From: Halalkalibacter krulwichiae
GTDB taxonomy: Bacteria > Bacillota > Bacilli > Bacillales > Bacillaceae_D
Length of the DNA stretch: 64,000 nt
Direction of reading: 5' to 3'
Assembly (NCBI RefSeq): GCF_002109385.1
Contig: NZ_CP020814.1
Coordinates: 3,743,501-3,807,500, forward strand
Below, piece after piece: positions 22,102 to 52,167 of this stretch. Each line of letters opens with the position of its first letter. The stretch's first letter is position 1. Under the pieces are notes generated by a model. That model made no database searches, was not told the origin of the DNA, and saw only the letters and a list, made by a program, of their open reading frames with translations. Position numbers and translations under genes: made by a program.

Positions 22102-22755
22102 ATGCGAATTTTAAACTGGGGAGTAGATTCCGCCGCTGCCGTAACAGAAGACTTGTACGAGTGCGTCGTAGGAAATTTTGGCCAACCAGATTTTTGGGGC
22201 CGTTACTTATCAACAATTCCAAATGTGAGTGAGGGACTTACCCTTGAAGAAGTACAATTGATTCATGATCGCGGTATGAAAATTATGACGATTTATAATA
22301 ATTTCAGTGCAGCCGTCGGTGAACGCGCCGGTGCGGTCGCCGCTCGCAATGCCATTTTTAAAGCACGTCAACTTGGTATAGAAGAAGGAAGTTTTTTGTT
22401 TGCAAATGTCGAACGATTTTTTGATACAGACGCAGCCTGGCTAACTGCATGGGTTGAAACACTATATAACAGCCCATATCGCCCAGGCATCTATGCTGAC
22501 CCTGATGAAGGACCATTTAACGCCGCTTTCTGCGAAGCAGCTGCTGCCAACCCTATCGTTCGCCAACAAAGCGTCATCTGGAGCGCCGAACCAGAGCCAG
22601 GAACAACCACAAAACAAAACGCCCCAAGACAATTCACCCCAAATCGCCCCGACTGCGACGCCAACGTCTGGGCCTGGCAATACGGCCGCGACGCCGACGA
22701 ATGCCCAATAGATACAGTCTTAATGGAGAATCGATTGTATAAAGAGTTATTTTAA
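22102..22755 (+). CDS. DUF1906 (glycoside hydrolase-like, Rv2525c-type) protein
   Basis: 217 residues from ATG 22102, chosen because GAGGAGGGAT precedes it; the longer frame upstream has no ribosome site. Begins MRILNWGVDSAAAV and shows the TIM-barrel-like pattern of DUF1906 proteins: GRYLSTIPNVSEGLT, HDRGMKIMTIYNNF, FANVERFFDTDAAWLTAW, GIYADPDEG, WAWQYGRDADECPIDTVLM. No signal peptide is visible. Related domains occur in cell-wall or spore-surface hydrolases; activity here is unproven. Only forward-strand gene in this stretch. Confidence 0.75.
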   Translation: MRILNWGVDSAAAVTEDLYECVVGNFGQPDFWGRYLSTIPNVSEGLTLEEVQLIHDRGMKIMTIYNNFSAAVGERAGAVAARNAIFKARQLGIEEGSFLFANVERFFDTDAAWLTAWVETLYNSPYRPGIYADPDEGPFNAAFCEAAAANPIVRQQSVIWSAEPEPGTTTKQNAPRQFTPNRPDCDANVWAWQYGRDADECPIDTVLMENRLYKELF

Positions 22756-23075
22756 AAAGGCGCCCTTTGCCTTTTTAAAATAACTCTTAAGCAATGAGCG
22801 CAGCCGGTGCCTTCCCTTAAGCCTTTTATGAGTGCCCTTCTCATAAAAGGTGCGCATCGTGCGGAGCCATTGCCTTCTTCGAAATCCCTCAAGAATCTTT
22901 TAAAAGGCGCCCTTTGCCTTTTTAAAATAACTCTTAAGCAATGAGCGCAGCCGATGCCTTCCCTTAAGCCTTTTATGAGTGCCCTTCTCTAAAAAGCGCG
23001 CATCGTGCGGAGCCATTGCCTTCTTCGAAATCCCCAAGAATCTTTTAAAAGGCGCCCTTTGCCTTTTTAAATAGA
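22742..23075. repeat. Array of structured repeats behind the DUF1906 gene
   Basis: A unit of about 145 bp occurs twice plus a third partial copy; the anchor GGCGCCCTTTGCC starts at 22759, 22906 and 23051. Each unit combines a hairpin AAAAAGGC/GCCTTTTT with the 82-83 bp GCAATG...CATTGC element (22791-22873 and 22938-23019) seen also at 13046. The first hairpin is a perfect 20-bp stem (22742-22790) that also serves as a terminator for the upstream gene. Confidence 0.8.
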
Positions 23076-23146
23076 AAAGGCAACGACAAGTACTCGCTTT
23101 TCGTCCCCTTCCTTTTAAATCCTAAAAAACTCATAAATTCCTTATA

Positions 23147-30020: not shown

Positions 30021-30189
30021 GTCTTTTAGCAGGGTATCTAGGACATTTTCCTCCTTTTTCTTGCTCATCTTGTCCTTTAGCAGCCCTCTCTTGGACACTT
30101 TCCTCCTTTTTCTTGTCCATCTTGTCCTTTAGCAGCCCTCTCTTGGACACTTTCCTCCTTTTTCTTGTCCATCTTGTCCTTTAGCAGGC
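30021..30189. repeat. Tandem repeat, 52-bp unit, about 3.3 copies
   Basis: Units start at 30021, 30072, 30124 and (partial) 30176, each beginning GTCCTTTAGCAG. Units 2 and 3 are identical; unit 1 has diverged. Sits between the lipoprotein terminator and the fliT terminator. No ORF of quality crosses it. Confidence 0.85.
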
Positions 30190-45174: not shown

Positions 45175-45672
<498 letters not shown>

Positions 45673-45747: not shown

Positions 45748-47169
45748 TTAATCATCATTCAAGATATAATATCGTAAATCTTTTTCATCAATTCTAGAAT
45801 AATCTTTACGAATAAATAAATAAAAAATAAATCCTATAAGAAACCAGGCAATTAATGCAATTATAGAAGGCATTTTTAATGCTGCTGGTGATATTGGAAT
45901 TAATAATAATAATATGAATATTATACTAAAGGTTATCCCCGAAAGAGCTATTAGTTTTTTTATAGGAGCGAACACCTGATTTCCAGACCGTTTCCAAGAT
46001 AAAAGTTTATAGGCTGCAATACATGTAAATAAATAGCCAACTGTTACTCCTATAGATGCCATGTCAACAATCCATGATAAAGCTGGCCTACCGAATAGCA
46101 TCAAAGGTAACATTGTTATTGCAATAAACCAGATCGCTTTATATGGTGTTTGATATTTCGGATGCAAATCTTCGAAAAACTTAGGTAACGCTCTTCCTCT
46201 TGCCATCGAATACAAGAGACGGCTAGAAGAATTTAAAAAACCATTTAACCCTGTGAAAATCCCCATTATAATAACAATTGTTAAAACTAACAAGCCCATT
46301 ATACCTGCTGAAGAATAAATGATATCACCTATTAACCAGAGACCACTATTACTATTAAAATTAGATATATCAAATGTCCATGATGCTACACCAATCATCA
46401 CTATATAAACTAATCCAGAAGATAATAGTGATAAAATAATTAACATAGTAGTTTTTTGGGTTGAGAATTTAAATTCTTCTGCTGCCTGTGGTACATTGTC
46501 AAACCCTACATATGCCCAGGGGGCTATTGCTAGTACAACTAATATAGAGACAGTAATTGATTGATTTTCATTAAAGGCTGGTTGCATATTCATCAACGGA
46601 AAATCCGCAAAATTAAATGTATAAATAGCAATGATGACTACACCAACTGCTAAAATAACAGAAAAAAACAATTGGAGCTTTCCCGAAAATTTAGATCCCT
46701 TAATATTAAACAGGGCGAATAATACAATCATTATAGAAGAGATTATTAACTCAGGTATATAAACTTCCCAACCAGCAATTGTATACAAATAACCTTGTTT
46801 CATAAATAAAGGATTTAAATATTTCAGTAATAAAGAAAAAGCAGACGCATTAAGGGCAACAATACTAGCATAACCCAATACCATGAACCATCCTGTTATA
46901 AAAGCCCAATTTCTACCTGAACTTAAATAAGCATAAGCATACCCTCCACCTGATACAGGATAACGGCGAATTAGTACACCATAACATATTGCGATCATCA
47001 TCATGATTGTAGCTCCTAAACCTAACCCAATCATAGCTCCTATACTACCAGATTGATTAACCCAATCAGTAGGTAAGATAAATGCTCCCCAACCTATTGA
47101 AGATCCAAAGGCAATCGACCAAACCCATGACGGTTTTATACTTCGCGCTAGTTCACTTCTTTGCGCCAT
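45748..47169 (-). CDS. APC family amino-acid permease
   Basis: 473 residues, about 12 membrane helices. The APC signature is clear: SWVWSIAFGSSIGWGAFILP in helix 1 (unwound Gly-containing segment), RRYPVSGGGYAYAYLSSGRN, APWAYVGFDNVPQAAEEFKF, GFLNSSSRLLYSMARGRALP. Substrate is probably an amino acid or amine. Its ATG lies 17 bp inside the 3' end of the ATP-grasp gene upstream (good AAGGAG site), so the two are translationally linked. A/T-rich like its two ATP-grasp neighbours and unlike the flanking operons. Confidence 0.9.
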   Translation of the reverse strand: MAQRSELARSIKPSWVWSIAFGSSIGWGAFILPTDWVNQSGSIGAMIGLGLGATIMMMIAICYGVLIRRYPVSGGGYAYAYLSSGRNWAFITGWFMVLGYASIVALNASAFSLLLKYLNPLFMKQGYLYTIAGWEVYIPELIISSIMIVLFALFNIKGSKFSGKLQLFFSVILAVGVVIIAIYTFNFADFPLMNMQPAFNENQSITVSILVVLAIAPWAYVGFDNVPQAAEEFKFSTQKTTMLIILSLLSSGLVYIVMIGVASWTFDISNFNSNSGLWLIGDIIYSSAGIMGLLVLTIVIIMGIFTGLNGFLNSSSRLLYSMARGRALPKFFEDLHPKYQTPYKAIWFIAITMLPLMLFGRPALSWIVDMASIGVTVGYLFTCIAAYKLLSWKRSGNQVFAPIKKLIALSGITFSIIFILLLLIPISPAALKMPSIIALIAWFLIGFIFYLFIRKDYSRIDEKDLRYYILNDD

Positions 47170-48223
47170 AATAAATTCTCCTTTCTTCTTTATTCAGAAC
47201 ATATTGATAATACATTGTTCGTGTAAAAGCAATGGATGTTGGTGCAAAGGTAATAGCTGGAGCACCATTAACTTCAAATAGGTATAATTCTCCTTCTGGA
47301 GAAATCCCAATATCCAAGCCAAGTGTCATCAATTCTGTTTGTCTTACCTTCTCTACTATTTGAGCTATCAAAATACCTAAATAGTTCAGTTTTTCATTTA
47401 TTTCATTTGCCCTTCCGTTAAAATTTGCTTTTAGAAATTGTAAACAATCTGCAATACCTCCTCCTTGATTTACATTAGAGATAACTTTTTGACCAATTCC
47501 AATTCTAATAGGCTTTTTTACAATAGCCCATTTACCCAAACCGTCCTTTTCAAGATGCACTCTACAATCAAATGGGTCGCCTTGTCTTGTACTTGACTGT
47601 ATATACTTTTGCAGAATATATTTCCCACCCGTAAATTCATTTTCAAAAAGATTTATAAACTCATACAAATCAATATTTTGAGTTTTTGTTTGATACTCAA
47701 CTTGATAATTGAAATCATCTAACTTTGTTACCAAATATACTCCTTTGCCTCCTAAACCATTAATGGGTTTTAAAACAACCTTTTTATCATGATTTAGGGC
47801 ATTATCTATATCTTTAAAATTTTCTACTCTTAACGTAGGTATTAGGTATTTTTCAATTTCACTATATTTTTCCAATTCTAAATTCATTAATTCCTTTGAG
47901 ATAATAAAAGGATTTGATGAAGCGAGTTTACCAAGATTTAAACGATTATCTGATAAAAGAGTGTTTTTCTCAAGAAATTCAAAAACTACTCTATTATTTT
48001 CCGAATATTCATAGGCCGTCACATCTATAAATAAAGGAATCTGAGTTTTAACGGTCACCCAATTATTTCTAATTAAAATCTTACCAGTAATTTCATGATT
48101 ACTGATATTGATATCTTTTGGTGTAAGGTAAATTAATTCTATTCCCAATTCTTTACATGAAATTGCTAATAACTTTGCCATCTGACTAGGCTGTGCTCTT
48201 GATCTCAAATAACCTACGAACAT
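47153..48223 (-). CDS. YheC/YheD-type ATP-grasp protein, single module
   Basis: 356 residues; ATG behind AAGGAG. N-terminal pre-ATP-grasp domain (MFVGYLRSRAQPSQMAKLLA), then an ATP-grasp fold: Lys and Gly-rich loop VVLKPINGLGGKGVYLV near 150, adenine-binding YILQKYIQ, DCRVHLEKDG, and the metal-binding end GLDIGISPEGELYLFEVNGA (Asp, Glu, Asn). YheC/D proteins are spore-associated in B. subtilis, but here the gene is in a flagellin-proximal cassette. ATP-grasp ligases join a carboxylate to an amine, so peptide or side-chain ligation is plausible; substrate unknown. Confidence 0.88.
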   Translation of the reverse strand: MFVGYLRSRAQPSQMAKLLAISCKELGIELIYLTPKDINISNHEITGKILIRNNWVTVKTQIPLFIDVTAYEYSENNRVVFEFLEKNTLLSDNRLNLGKLASSNPFIISKELMNLELEKYSEIEKYLIPTLRVENFKDIDNALNHDKKVVLKPINGLGGKGVYLVTKLDDFNYQVEYQTKTQNIDLYEFINLFENEFTGGKYILQKYIQSSTRQGDPFDCRVHLEKDGLGKWAIVKKPIRIGIGQKVISNVNQGGGIADCLQFLKANFNGRANEINEKLNYLGILIAQIVEKVRQTELMTLGLDIGISPEGELYLFEVNGAPAITFAPTSIAFTRTMYYQYVLNKEERRIYYGAKK

Positions 48224-48289
48224 ACTAAAGCTCCTTATTAGTTTTACTATTTACATATTAATATATTAAGTAGATATCAATTTAATCTA

Positions 48290-50797
48290 TTATAGCTTTT
48301 TTTCAGCCAATTTTATCGCATAGGGAATTGCATGTTTTGCTAATTCAAATTCGTAATTTATAAAACCTGGCTTGTTCACATTTACTTCTATTAATTTCAG
48401 CTTCAATTCTTTATCAACCGCTATATCTAACCCAATTTCATTTATTCTTTCCTCATACAGCCTTTCGAATTCCACAGCTACATTTAATGATAGTGTTCTA
48501 ACCTCACTCTCGATGTTTATATATATATCTTTGCCAAAATTTCTTTCTAGAAAGCTAGAAAGTTTACCAATATAACCACCTTTTCTTAGAACTAAGATAA
48601 CCGCATGATAAACTCCTACCCTAGGGTGGATATTCACAAAAGACCAATCATTTTTTTCATTTTTCATCATGTGCACCCTAATATCAAATGGTTGATTGTC
48701 TATTGTTCTCGATTCAATATATTTTTGTACAATGAATTTTCCATTCTTTAAGATCTCTCTTAAATACTGAGTAAGGTACATTTCACTATAAGTCCGTTCA
48801 ATTTCCCCCAAAGCTAAAAAGTAATTATCAATGTTCTTTTTTTCAATAAAATGAACACCATTTGCAAACGATCCTACCTCTGGCTTAACGATTATTTTTC
48901 CATATTTATTCAAAAAATCAAAAATATCTTTAACTCTTTCTACCTTTTTATAAGGAATTATATTTTCATCTAGAGCATTGGATAAATTCAACTTATCGTA
49001 TACTTCAAGCTTACTGATAGAATTACCAAAGAATTCATTTGTAAACGGGATTCCTTCAAACTCTTCATAAATATGGCTATAACTTTTCATTCCTCTTAGT
49101 CTTAGGCGATCGTAAATAGCATGTGGATATTCAACAATTTTAGGTATCCACTTTTTATCTTCATAGTAATAACCCCGAATTAACATTTCATCGTAATCAA
49201 TATCTTTAGGGGTAAAGTAAAAAAATTGGACATCTTCGTACTTAGCAACATATGCACAAGCGATCGCTAAATTATTATTTTCAGATTCGCTTACTAACAT
49301 TCCGATTCTGTATCGACCATCCGATTCTACTTTTTCTAATTTCGTTTTCAATACATCAAATTGACCATCGGTATTAACCTTCTTATTAAATTCATTAATA
49401 AAAAATAATTGATTTTTCCCAACATATTCTGCATAGGCAATAGTTTTTACTGCTCTCTCTTCCTCATGAAACGTCGACTGTGGACTAGTATTTACCTCGT
49501 GTAACCAAAAACGCCCATTTTCATCTATGGCTAAATCTAATCCCAACTCATCAAATGAAAACCCATATAGCTTATCAATATGTTTAGTTAATCCTAGTGA
49601 TAAGTCAATTAGTGCCTTTTCATATTTATTACCCGCTTTTCCAAATTCTCTATACAATAAATCAGTCAGTGATATAACTTTACCACCACGACTAATATTA
49701 CTCAGTATGGTTTTTCTATTCCCAATTCGAGGATATACTTTTGTTATTTCCCATTTTCCCTCTCCATTTTTTTGAACATGAGCTCTAATATCATAAGGTT
49801 CATCATTTTTAGTTCGACATTCCACGTACTTTTGAACTATGTAAACCTTTTCCTGAAGAAATTCTTCTTTAATCCAATGATTTAGTTCTTCTTCACTTAA
49901 AATATGTTGTTTTTGGTGTTCTAAAATAGAAAAACGTTTCCCTTTTTTTTCAATAAAATAAATATTATTACCTTGACTGCCTTTAATAGGTTTCACTACT
50001 ATTCTTTTGTTAACATTTAAAAAAGATTTAAGTGTAGTTTCTTTTGCAATGATCTTAAAAGGTATTAATAATTCATCATACTTTCTAGATTCAACTATTT
50101 TTTTAGGAAGGTGAAATTTATCACCTATATTAAAACACGTAAATGGAATTTCTCTTCTCAATCTTCTTTCAGTACGTGACCAATAAACTCGGGCTTTTGG
50201 CGATATATTATAAATCACCTCGGGAAAAGGAACACTTTCAATTATCCATTCTCCATCATCATAAACATTAGCCTTAATCTGTTTTAGGTTAAAATCCACA
50301 GCCTTAGAGCTAAAAAATATAAGCTTAATATCCCTTTTTTTACTTTCTTTTAATAAGGCACTTACACGCTCAGGCCTTATTTTATTAATAGGATTTTCCT
50401 GACAAAGATAAATACCAATTGTTATCGAATGCTGTTCACCTCTACTATAAAAATCTTCTTCATCTAAAACTTCCTTCCACTGCTGAAGCTGTGGCATTAA
50501 TGTAAATTGCATGACTTCACTAACTTTAATTAAATTTCTTTCTTCTATTAATGTTGTTATAAGAGAGATCGTCTTTTTAATTTTTTCAATATTATTTTGC
50601 ATGTAGCCATTTGCTAAAGCCAAATCTCGTAGATTCTTTTCAATAGCTCCAAATCCCTCAACAATTGAACTAAAAATTAAAATTGTTTCGTTAAATTTCA
50701 TTTCTCTTGCTACAACTTGGAAGTGGTCTCCAGCTTCTATTAATGTTTCTATTATCTTTCCCGATTGAAAAAGTAATTTTTCTCTTTGTTTCATCAC
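48290..50797 (-). CDS. Two-module YheC/YheD ATP-grasp protein with N-terminal helical domain
   Basis: 835 residues from GTG 50797 (or ATG 50794), AAGGAGAG upstream. Residues 1-125 are an all-helical domain (GKIIETLIEAGDHFQVVARE, IVEGFGAIEKNLRDLALANG). Module 1 (about 130-470): KRIVVKPIKGSQGNNIYFIE, YIVQKYVEC, DIRAHVQKNG, LGLDLAIDENGRFWLHEVNT. Module 2 (about 500-835): KIIVKPEVGSFANGVHFIE, FIVQKYIES, DIRVHMMKNE, IGLDIAVDKELKLKLIEVNV. Both keep ATP- and metal-binding residues, so both may be active; a fused tandem is unusual. Downstream of hag, upstream of the single-module gene, co-directional. Confidence 0.88.
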   Translation of the reverse strand: MMKQREKLLFQSGKIIETLIEAGDHFQVVAREMKFNETILIFSSIVEGFGAIEKNLRDLALANGYMQNNIEKIKKTISLITTLIEERNLIKVSEVMQFTLMPQLQQWKEVLDEEDFYSRGEQHSITIGIYLCQENPINKIRPERVSALLKESKKRDIKLIFFSSKAVDFNLKQIKANVYDDGEWIIESVPFPEVIYNISPKARVYWSRTERRLRREIPFTCFNIGDKFHLPKKIVESRKYDELLIPFKIIAKETTLKSFLNVNKRIVVKPIKGSQGNNIYFIEKKGKRFSILEHQKQHILSEEELNHWIKEEFLQEKVYIVQKYVECRTKNDEPYDIRAHVQKNGEGKWEITKVYPRIGNRKTILSNISRGGKVISLTDLLYREFGKAGNKYEKALIDLSLGLTKHIDKLYGFSFDELGLDLAIDENGRFWLHEVNTSPQSTFHEEERAVKTIAYAEYVGKNQLFFINEFNKKVNTDGQFDVLKTKLEKVESDGRYRIGMLVSESENNNLAIACAYVAKYEDVQFFYFTPKDIDYDEMLIRGYYYEDKKWIPKIVEYPHAIYDRLRLRGMKSYSHIYEEFEGIPFTNEFFGNSISKLEVYDKLNLSNALDENIIPYKKVERVKDIFDFLNKYGKIIVKPEVGSFANGVHFIEKKNIDNYFLALGEIERTYSEMYLTQYLREILKNGKFIVQKYIESRTIDNQPFDIRVHMMKNEKNDWSFVNIHPRVGVYHAVILVLRKGGYIGKLSSFLERNFGKDIYINIESEVRTLSLNVAVEFERLYEERINEIGLDIAVDKELKLKLIEVNVNKPGFINYEFELAKHAIPYAIKLAEKKL

Positions 50798-50836
50798 AGA
50801 TGCTCTCCTTTATAATTTGATAAAGATATATTAACT

Positions 50837-50993
50837 AAATTGAATCAATTTCATATTACATATTCATATGTAAACTACTAAAACATTTAAATTGAATATA
50901 ACTTAATATTTTTCTATAGTTGAATTATTAAATTTCACCCAACATTTATTGACATTCATTTAATTGTTCACTTCTATGAAATTGATTCAATTT
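50837..50993. promoter_or_regulatory. Pair of identical palindromes flanking the cassette promoter region
   Basis: AAATTGA-A-TCAATTT at 50837-50851 and AAATTGA-T-TCAATTT at 50979-50993. Extended, they form an 18-bp perfect inverted repeat 121 bp apart. They lie between the hag terminator and the ATP-grasp start and look like two operator sites of one dimeric regulator; a looping or inversion role is possible. Confidence 0.65.
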
Positions 50994-51012
50994 ATATTAT
51001 TGTTTACTCAGT

Positions 51013-51045
51013 AAAAAAGACCCTATTACTTCAGGGTCTTTTTTA
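51013..51045 (-). terminator. Terminator of hag
   Basis: Stem AAAAAAGACCCT/AGGGTCTTTTTT directly after the flagellin stop; separates hag from the ATP-grasp cassette. Confidence 0.9.
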
Positions 51046-51056
51046 CTACCGATAAA

Positions 51057-52022
51057 TTATCCCAATAATTGAAGTACGGCTTGTGGAGCTTGATTCGCCT
51101 GTGCAAGCATTGCTTGAGAAGCTTGAGAAAGAATATTGTTCTTTGTCATCTCCATTACTTCCCGCGCCATATCTACATCTCGTATACGAGATTCCGCAGC
51201 CTGTAAATTTTCAGCAGATGTATTCAAATTGTTAATTGAATGATCTAACCTATTTTGTAATGCACCTAATTTTGAACGTTCGCTCGAAACTTGTTCAATA
51301 GCTTTATCAATAGAACCAATAATATTATCGAAGGTTACAGCTCCTCCACCTTCACCTTCACCTTCACCTTCACCCGCACCCGCTGATTGGTGTACAGCAG
51401 TTGTCACATTAATGTTATTAATAGTGAGACCACCGCTTCCTTCACCTTCACCTTCACCTGCTGCGCTAACGTTCCCCAATGCACTCGCTCTCATGTCTGA
51501 AATATTTAAAGTTACAGTTTGTCTTTGATTAGCACCTATTTGGAAATTAAGGCTTCTAACAGCAGCGGCTTCACCTTCACCTTCACCTGCTGCTGCTTCA
51601 GCAAAATCACCAGTCATTAGCGTTTTAGTATTAAATTCTGTACGTTCAGCAATACCAGTTATCTCTGAGCTTAAAGCTGTAAGTTCATCTTGAATAGCAT
51701 CTAGATCTTCTGTAGTATTAGTATCATTAGCAGCTTGAACTGCTAATTCACGCATTCTCTGTAAAATTGAATGCGTTTCATTTAGAGCACCTTCAGCAGT
51801 TTGAATTAATGAAATACCATCCTGAGCATTTCGAGCAGCCTGGTCTAAACCACGAATCTGAGCACGCATTTTCTCAGAAATTGACAATCCTGTAGCATCA
51901 TCTCCAGCTTTATTAATTCGCATTCCTGAAGATAACTTCTCCATTGCTTTTTGCCCCGCCATTTGATTAGCACCCATCTGACGATACGTATTCATTGCCG
52001 GAATATTATTATTAATAATCAT
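51057..52022 (-). CDS. hag: Flagellin with three Gly-Glu repeat arrays
   Basis: Filament subunit, 321 residues; ATG 52022 behind AAGGAGG. Conserved D0/D1 ends: [20 protein letters not shown] and [20 protein letters not shown] at the N-terminus, [20 protein letters not shown] and [16 protein letters not shown] at the C-terminus. The short variable region carries GEGEGE at 146-151, GEGEGE at 189-194 and GEGEGEGE at 217-224, each in an Ala/Gly-rich loop around [20 protein letters not shown]. Such charged repeats are not a normal part of Bacillus Hag. Exported with FliS, translation controlled by CsrA-FliW, transcription by SigD. Confidence 0.96.
51351..51587 (-). repeat. Three GGTGAA microsatellite arrays inside hag
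   Basis: Exact GGTGAA hexamers on the coding strand: 4 units at 51351-51374, 3 at 51441-51458, 3 at 51570-51587. All ten units use the same Gly and Glu codons. Length change by a unit would keep the frame and add or remove one Gly-Glu. Confidence 0.95.
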
Positions 52023-52140: not shown

Positions 52141-52167
52141 ATATCGGTTGATAGATTGAGATGTTTA
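52141..52167 (-). promoter_or_regulatory. SigD promoter of hag
   Basis: Minus strand TAAA, 15 nt, ACCGATAT; one mismatch to TAAA-N15-GCCGATAT. About 120 bp upstream of the hag start. A GTCACGG/CCGTGAC hairpin lies in the leader. Confidence 0.92.

Follow-up and report, generated by a model that had tools for sequence, protein, structure and literature searches.

Why do genes for ATP-grasp enzymes stand beside the flagellin gene hag in Halalkalibacter krulwichiae, and could their products act on the flagellin? The window analysed here is a stretch of 64,000 nt (GCF_002109385.1, NZ_CP020814.1, positions 3,743,501-3,807,500, forward strand), and all coordinates below are window positions. The central gene, here called Y2, encodes a protein with a DUF8042 domain and two YheC/D ATP-grasp modules. 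The Y2-flagellin pair is a real, conserved association, and no earlier description of it was found in the literature searched. Y2 is quite likely to modify flagellin. We lean towards a reading in which it docks flagellin and, like RimK and TTLL, attaches amino acids to glutamates at the surface. That it joins amino acids to glutamate (Glu) side chains is, as a separate claim, an even bet.

The initial annotation had proposed a ligase that modifies flagellin, probably at Glu, and had given parts in this to Gly-Glu (GE) arrays of Hag, to a one-module ligase and to a permease. The core of this proposal gains from the linkage, from DUF8042 and from an enrichment of Glu in the flagellins. The arrays, the one-module ligase and the permease do not keep the parts given to them. 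The four genes themselves had been placed correctly, on the minus strand, according to the list of open reading frames (ORFs) and the profile searches:

51057..52022, minus strand: hag, flagellin of 321 aa including the GE arrays (PF00669 158 bits, PF00700 109.5 bits; counted from ATG)
48290..50797, minus strand: Y2, DUF8042 and two YheC/D ATP-grasp modules, 834-835 aa (PF14398 343.6 bits, in two stretches)
47153..48223, minus strand: one-module YheC/D ATP-grasp protein of 356 aa (PF14398 166.9 bits)
45748..47169, minus strand: APC amino-acid permease (PF13520 130.3 bits)

Linkage of Y2 to flagellin genes

A genome survey for an association of the ATP-grasp gene with hag had been suggested as a check. 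It was run, and its result does not refute the proposed modification. The first pass was a scan not aimed at flagellin, in a collection in which each species is represented by one genome, and it gave 42 Y2 loci. In 31 of them the distance from Y2 to a flagellin gene is 3 kb or less, and the two are mostly adjacent. Both orientations are represented; some pairs belong to main flagellar operons, and others involve orphan hag genes that have different neighbours. The loci include Evansella, Alkalibacillus, Lederbergia and Oceanobacillus. Among the 11 loci without flagellin, seven have Y2 no more than 2 kb from the end of a contig (L073, L075, L077, L092, L100, L103 and L106), one is a 12-kb contig (L107) and one is a weak fragment of 26% identity (L109). 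The remaining two are considered below.

As a control, hag, fliW, flgL and flgK were looked for at 20 one-module YheC/D loci, presumed to be of the spore type, in both flanks, each up to 10 kb long. None of the 20 loci contains any of them; two of these genomes lack any match to flagellin. The contrast of 31/42 with 0/20 corresponds to a Fisher p of 1.8e-8, with species that are not independent.

The second pass covered 159 genomes of one family, with some species shared with the first pass. It gave 29 full-length Y2 genes, 20 of them within 3.6 kb of a flagellin gene and five at contig edges (G426, G462, G523, G474 and G514). Among 13 genomes of the genus, Y2 was found elsewhere in one (G008), where it lies in two frames less than 1 kb from a flagellin match. 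G008 may be the same strain as the first-pass locus L085, whose Y2 is split alike.

Some further features were seen at Y2 loci. Directly 3' of Y2, in two different genera, are ATP-grasp genes that look like D-Ala-D-Ala ligases by sequence (L072_11 and L093_13). Flagellin genes are split at the same profile position (around 51-56 of PF00700), with a gap of a few hundred bases, in G438, G498, G488, G470, G437, G440, G434, G431, G441 and G465. ORFs with the look of homing endonucleases lie near Y2 in L092, L093 and L096. Group I introns are known from flagellin genes of Bacillus, and the split genes look like insertions of this type.

Glutamate in the flagellin variable region

The variable regions of 27 flagellins from genomes with Y2 (Y2+) and 25 flagellins from genomes without full-length Y2 (Y2-) were compared in the family of the second pass. 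The Y2+ set represents 27 of the 29 genomes (G468 and G470 unread). The Y2- set was taken from 30 of the 130 genomes without full-length Y2, namely the 20 first-listed genomes with no match and 10 with partial matches; 25 of the 30 were used (G442, G432, G436 and G431 unread, G463 without a flagellin match). In G491 and G488 the copy adjoining Y2 replaced the best-scoring flagellin. The p-values assume independent species, except in the genus-mean and within-genus tests.

The Glu fraction is 0.100 in Y2+ and 0.049 in Y2- flagellins (Mann-Whitney p 1.6e-8). The difference is also seen between genus means (0.102 vs 0.054, p 2.1e-5), within six mixed genera with 24 genomes (one-sided permutation p < 0.001), with the 18 linked copies only (0.097 vs 0.049, p 1.2e-6), without the copy swap in G491 and G488 (0.100 vs 0.056, p 2.3e-6, n = 22 and 21) and among short flagellins only (0.104 vs 0.047, p 6e-4, n = 20 and 8). 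Aspartate (Asp) in the variable region is equal in the two sets (p 0.44), as are Lys+Arg (0.041 vs 0.042, p 0.45) and the Glu of the conserved N-terminal part (p 0.55). Ser+Thr is lower in Y2+ (0.169 vs 0.219, p 0.001), and the variable region is shorter (79 vs 162 aa, p 1.7e-4).

The enrichment is replicated outside that family. Glu is 0.107 in 12 Y2-linked flagellins, the hag studied here included, and 0.049 in 27 relatives (p 8e-6), and Asp is again alike (0.072 vs 0.077, p 0.43). The Y2+ loci of this set represent about one per genus, outside the places of the second pass. Of the 28 controls, 27 were read, L037-L040 being nearly identical, and none of the 27 has full-length Y2. Two flagellins of one genome could also be compared: the linked one is richer in Glu than the unlinked one in five of six pairs, which are the readable ones among nine (a third flagellin of L089 was unread). 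Because Asp is unchanged and Glu differs between flagellins of one cell, a general drive towards acidity is argued against, and a requirement for Glu as substrate would explain the pattern.

A conserved acceptor column was also sought. In the motif ..DMSAE.. one column has Glu in 18/24 Y2+ and 1/10 Y2- short flagellins (Fisher p 0.0015), a column chosen after all columns had been scanned and thus exploratory only. The hag studied here has Ser at this column.

Domains of Y2 and the proposed reaction

The protein is divided as follows:

50444..50794, minus strand: N-terminal four-helix domain DUF8042 (PF26154), residues 1-117 (precomputed domain and AlphaFold2)
49415..50428, minus strand: ATP-grasp module 1; K268, D420, E433 and N435 are identical in 32/32 aligned members
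48293..49318, minus strand: ATP-grasp module 2; D790, E803 and N805 are present and are kept in 26, 27 and 28 of 32

The AlphaFold2 model of DUF8042 has a pLDDT of 92.7, with helices at 3-30, 34-57, 63-84 and 88-116. Among the matches listed, DUF8042 precedes the ATP-grasp modules in most full-length Y2 relatives. Elsewhere, proteins homologous to this domain are small and belong to flagellar loci in 29 of 32 cases. These loci come from 33 of the 49 places other than Y2, taken by descending score with some low ones skipped. One of them, G015, was chosen ahead of three others after its proximity to hag had been seen; without it the count is 28/31. Genes that we take to be Maf-like or PseB-like occur in 9/32 of these loci. 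Three DUF8042 proteins matched no NCBIfam or Pfam family above cut-off, and a fold search of the PDB returned generic four-helix bundles, with designed proteins in the first ranks. The literature search found no paper mentioning DUF8042. A relationship to FliS, FliT or FlgN was considered and has no sequence support. The export chaperone FliS differs further in that FliS-like genes are present separately in many Y2 loci.

Y2 and the one-module protein both far exceed the curated PF14398 cut-off of 26.8 bits, and in this they are like YheC and YheD, the spore proteins of B. subtilis. Presumed spore-type YheC/YheD proteins have one module and none of the queried flagellar genes at the 20 control loci, whereas Y2 has two modules and DUF8042 and adjoins a flagellin gene. 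Full-length relatives of up to 56% identity are found in Virgibacillus, Lentibacillus, Oceanobacillus, Evansella and others (protein search, at least 120 matches), and Y2 belongs to a distinct family. The residue conservation was counted on an alignment of 32 out of 120 matches of this search; the Lys, Asp, Glu and Asn are assumed to be the catalytic residues. Six further matches (P0115-P0120) have other architectures, with YheC/D modules fused to Mur-ligase domains or to PF09587, which suggests a putative role in peptide or poly-amino-acid synthesis. A plasmid search turned up nothing closer than distant YheC/D proteins, carried by 16 plasmids of Priestia.

Y2 shares its fold with the protein-amino-acid ligases RimK, LysX and TTLL, and a graspetide ligase (7mgv) also appears in the Foldseek results. 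RimK profiles stay below cut-off (PF08443 19.5 of 21; TIGR00768 25.3 of 143.4). The TTL profile PF03133 gives 40.3 bits over the whole protein (cut-off 20.1), with no single stretch reaching E 0.001, and the PF14398 match over the same residues has 343.6 bits. Unlike RimK, LysX/ArgX and TTL/TTLL, Y2 has tandem modules, an additional DUF8042 and a different target.

The following course can be proposed. Judging from its gene neighbourhood, DUF8042 might act as an adaptor of the flagellar system and deliver flagellin to Y2 after its synthesis and before its export. The tandem ATP-grasp modules, of which at least module 1 is predicted to be catalytic, would activate carboxylates with ATP and attach amino acids. 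Glu side chains in the short variable region would be the likeliest acceptors. The modification would replace O-glycosylation of the Maf type on short flagellins without outer domains. A wider proposal is evenly balanced between true and false: that a DUF8042-guided tandem ATP-grasp ligase puts amino acids, possibly chains, on filament-surface Glu, that this is a non-glycan class of modification in Gram-positives and a counterpart of TTLL tubulin glutamylation and glycylation, and that DUF8042 is a recruiting domain shared by different flagellin-modifying enzymes.

Several observations weigh against such a ligation. Other folds are nearly as close as the protein-amino-acid ligases (DcsG 18.3, synapsin 18.1, PPIP5K2 18.0, Ddl 17.6), and the fold therefore singles out no one chemistry. 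The top Foldseek rank is a D-Ala-D-Ala ligase, and the best PDB sequence match of the Y2 profile is Ddl (E 0.027, sub-threshold), ahead of TTLL7 (0.048). By sequence, DUF8042 is not similar to FliS (hhalign probability 0.08-0.43%). L074 and L094 are without flagellin despite full flanks, and four of the 29 second-pass Y2 genes (G438, G544, G545 and G437) are unlinked to flagellin. In L093 (Planococcaceae) the Glu pattern is reversed: the linked flagellins are Glu-poor (the nearest 0.041) and the unlinked one is richer. A specific co-evolution of Y2 with its linked flagellin is unsupported, since in 11 loci the covariation of Y2 with hag (Mantel r 0.35) does not exceed that of Y2 with FliW (0.40). 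In the locus studied here, a hairpin stands between hag and Y2, and the scan gave no sigma-D-like site before Y2.

The relation to flagellin glycosylation bears on the strongest of the alternatives. PF01973, named MptE-like in the library, is presumably a domain of Maf. It is present in 0/29 Y2+ and 7/30 Y2- genomes (p 0.011), and in each of the seven it is no more than about 2.5 kb from a flagellin match. From this distribution, Y2 and glycosylation appear to be alternatives to each other. Among flagellins without Y2, PF01973 accompanies 6/10 short and 1/15 long ones (p 0.007; hand-counted, with intron-cut lengths included). The sole PF01973 match in the H. krulwichiae genome has 24.3 bits, under the cut-off of 34.6, and is far from hag. 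Sequence clusters of the Maf-like and PseB-like proteins have no member in the 42 Y2 loci, divergent glycosyltransferases elsewhere in the genomes not having been searched for.

Y2 might instead add an amino acid to a flagellin glycan, a nonulosonic acid or similar sugar, and not to the protein; we consider this unlikely, if less so than the other alternatives. Both absences just described argue against it, as does the variable region, where Ser+Thr is down and Glu is up, the reverse of what O-glycosylation would lead one to expect. In its favour, L078 and L095 carry a conserved trio of genes 3' of Y2, which from the look of the sequences we take to be LicD-like, class-V aminotransferase-like and nucleotidyltransferase-like. 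A phosphonate or choline decoration of flagellin is possible there. There are also precedents for ATP-grasp enzymes in flagellin-modification loci. As described in the available part of PMC3765264, SfmE of Shewanella is an ATP-grasp_4 protein whose loss shifts the flagellin mass, in a system where the modification is O-linked on Ser. Likewise, the available part of PMC5207246 places the PF13535 ATP-grasp protein CDR20291_0245 of C. difficile in the flagellin-modification cluster of an O-glycan system. They differ from Y2 in belonging to these ATP-grasp families and systems, and DUF8042 is not mentioned for them in those parts. Islands for Maf and nonulosonic acid, such as that of Geobacillus (PMC5109656), occupy the same slot beside the flagellin gene and contain DUF8042-type proteins too, whereas Y2+ genomes are without PF01973 and have flagellins lower in Ser/Thr and higher in Glu. 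The main text of that paper does not mention ATP-grasp or YheC.

Slightly less probable still is that Y2 joins a small acid or peptide to Lys or to the N terminus of flagellin, the Glu-rich surface being a docking or charge-balancing feature. Glu enrichment by itself does not identify Glu as the acceptor, and ATP-grasp ligases, as we understand them, use many pairs of carboxylates and amines. Against this, Lys+Arg of the variable region is unchanged, and the top fold rows of Y2 include ligases that, we presume, activate a protein carboxylate. A role for Y2 as a flagellar accessory in export, assembly or expression control, without any modification and with Glu reflecting shared alkaline or saline habitats, is improbable. 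The catalytic residues of module 1 are kept in 32/32, and the enrichment holds within genera, spares Asp and the N-terminal part, and distinguishes the paired flagellins of a single genome in 5/6. It is highly improbable that the neighbourhood is a coincidence and that the product of the ATP-grasp genes belongs to the spore or the cell wall, or is a peptide, and has nothing to do with flagella: YheC/D genes are common (76/120 relative genomes) and YheD of B. subtilis is spore-associated, with no function known according to the available part of PMC7911427, but the linkage and the N-terminal domain common to Y2 and flagellar-locus proteins speak against it.

If Y2 does ligate amino acids to flagellin, bacteria would also coat their filaments with amino acids through an ATP-grasp ligase. 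The orphan YheC/D family, present in 76/120 of the relatives sampled, would gain a function, DUF8042 could be named as a flagellin-recruiting domain, and the eukaryotic flagellum, an unrelated structure whose tubulin is glutamylated, would have a parallel in bacteria. The chemistry of the filament surface matters for the attachment of phages, for sensing by immune systems, for the formation of biofilms and for life in salt or alkali. In the cited literature, as far as the available parts go, flagellin decoration is sugar-based, with lysine methylation in addition in Shewanella (PMC3765264). The literature search, over titles and the starts of abstracts, found no paper on this system; related predictions may be contained in a survey of ATP-grasp amidoligases from 2009, which the available part of PMC3765264 cites.

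The hag locus of H. krulwichiae

Hag matches the NCBIfam flagellin Hag model with 388.6 bits (cut-off 352), and its residues 1-320 match B. subtilis Hag (5wjt) with E 3.5e-91. Three GE arrays had been described in its surface region, and all three are there, in the variable region (TRF and genome-wide pattern search):

51569..51588, minus strand: GE array 1, GGTGAA repeat
51439..51459, minus strand: GE array 2, GGTGAA repeat
51343..51374, minus strand: GE array 3, GGTGAA repeat

One of the arrays reads GEGEGEGE. The pattern GGNGARGGNGARGGNGAR has four matches, two of them overlapping, in the 4.61-Mb genome; all lie within hag, at three sites, and all are GGTGAA. The same pattern read backwards has no match in the genome. 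The arrays are not due to chance, because the pattern is confined to hag and the backwards control gave 0. When Hag is aligned to its B. subtilis counterpart, the arrays coincide with gapped parts of the variable region or adjoin them.

As a general correlate of the ligase the repeats fail, and as a signature of the whole system they are ruled out: among 150 flagellin-like ORFs, duplicates included, (GE)3 occurs only in seven copies of this same hag. (GE)3 is likewise missing from the 28 best relatives of the region, of which one, P0255, has ADGEAE. The variable region of this hag has a Glu fraction of 0.106, with 13 Glu and 4 Asp. The arrays fit a local means of supplying Glu and might serve as extra acceptors.

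The one-module ligase and the permease had likewise been counted as parts of the system. In the 42-locus set, no other locus has an intact one-module YheC/D ORF beside Y2, and the ligase is ruled out as a core part or as part of a conserved unit. The permease, near Y2 in 3/42 loci, is an occasional neighbour and is also ruled out as a core part; a permease of 46-48% identity adjoins Y2 in L089 and L090 and lies 1.1 kb away in L107. The arrays, the one-module ligase and the permease are mostly local additions, and the latter two may have been added to the operon in this genome. Across the genome, the PF14398 matches found are confined to the two modules of Y2 and the one-module protein. The usual spore-type YheC/D genes seem to be absent from it, since nothing beyond these three modules matches.

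Two sites around hag concern its transcription:

52142..52167, minus strand: sigma-D-like promoter of hag, TAAA-N16-CCGATA (pattern scan of the window)
51009..51048, minus strand: 17-pair hairpin between hag and Y2, a possible terminator (fold -22.2 kcal/mol, z -5.9)

None of 200 shuffles is as stable as the hairpin, in which the U-run sits within the 3' arm; it is absent from the output of a consensus terminator scan. The sigma-D-like pattern, based on the general consensus, has two matches in the window against 0.7 expected by chance, so that its support is the position upstream of hag. With the hairpin after it and this site before it, hag is probably its own transcription unit. The ATP-grasp genes had been placed directly downstream of hag. 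Their order and strand agree with this, but the hairpin intervenes, and a single operon is thus not implied. Y2, the one-module gene and the permease look like an operon, because the first two are 66 bases apart and the start of the permease overlaps the one-module gene, as had been noted, by 17 bases.

The genome has a second flagellin (G000:C1:1042323-1044775, L271), which is large and lies in two frames of 668 and 153 aa. It appears to be disrupted, since its N- and C-terminal flagellin matches fall in different frames. The gene adjoining it is presumably fliS-like.

Upstream of hag are genes that resemble fliW, flgL and flgK by the look of their sequences, in the usual flagellar order. Just past the permease, at 45175-45612, an ORF looks by eye like what is left of the C-terminal part of a xylanase-like glycoside hydrolase, and this edge of the flagellar block may be a rearrangement point. 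TRF also found tandem repeats in the window at 22751-23083 (147-bp unit, 2.3 copies) and at 30037-30187 (52-bp unit, 2.9 copies).

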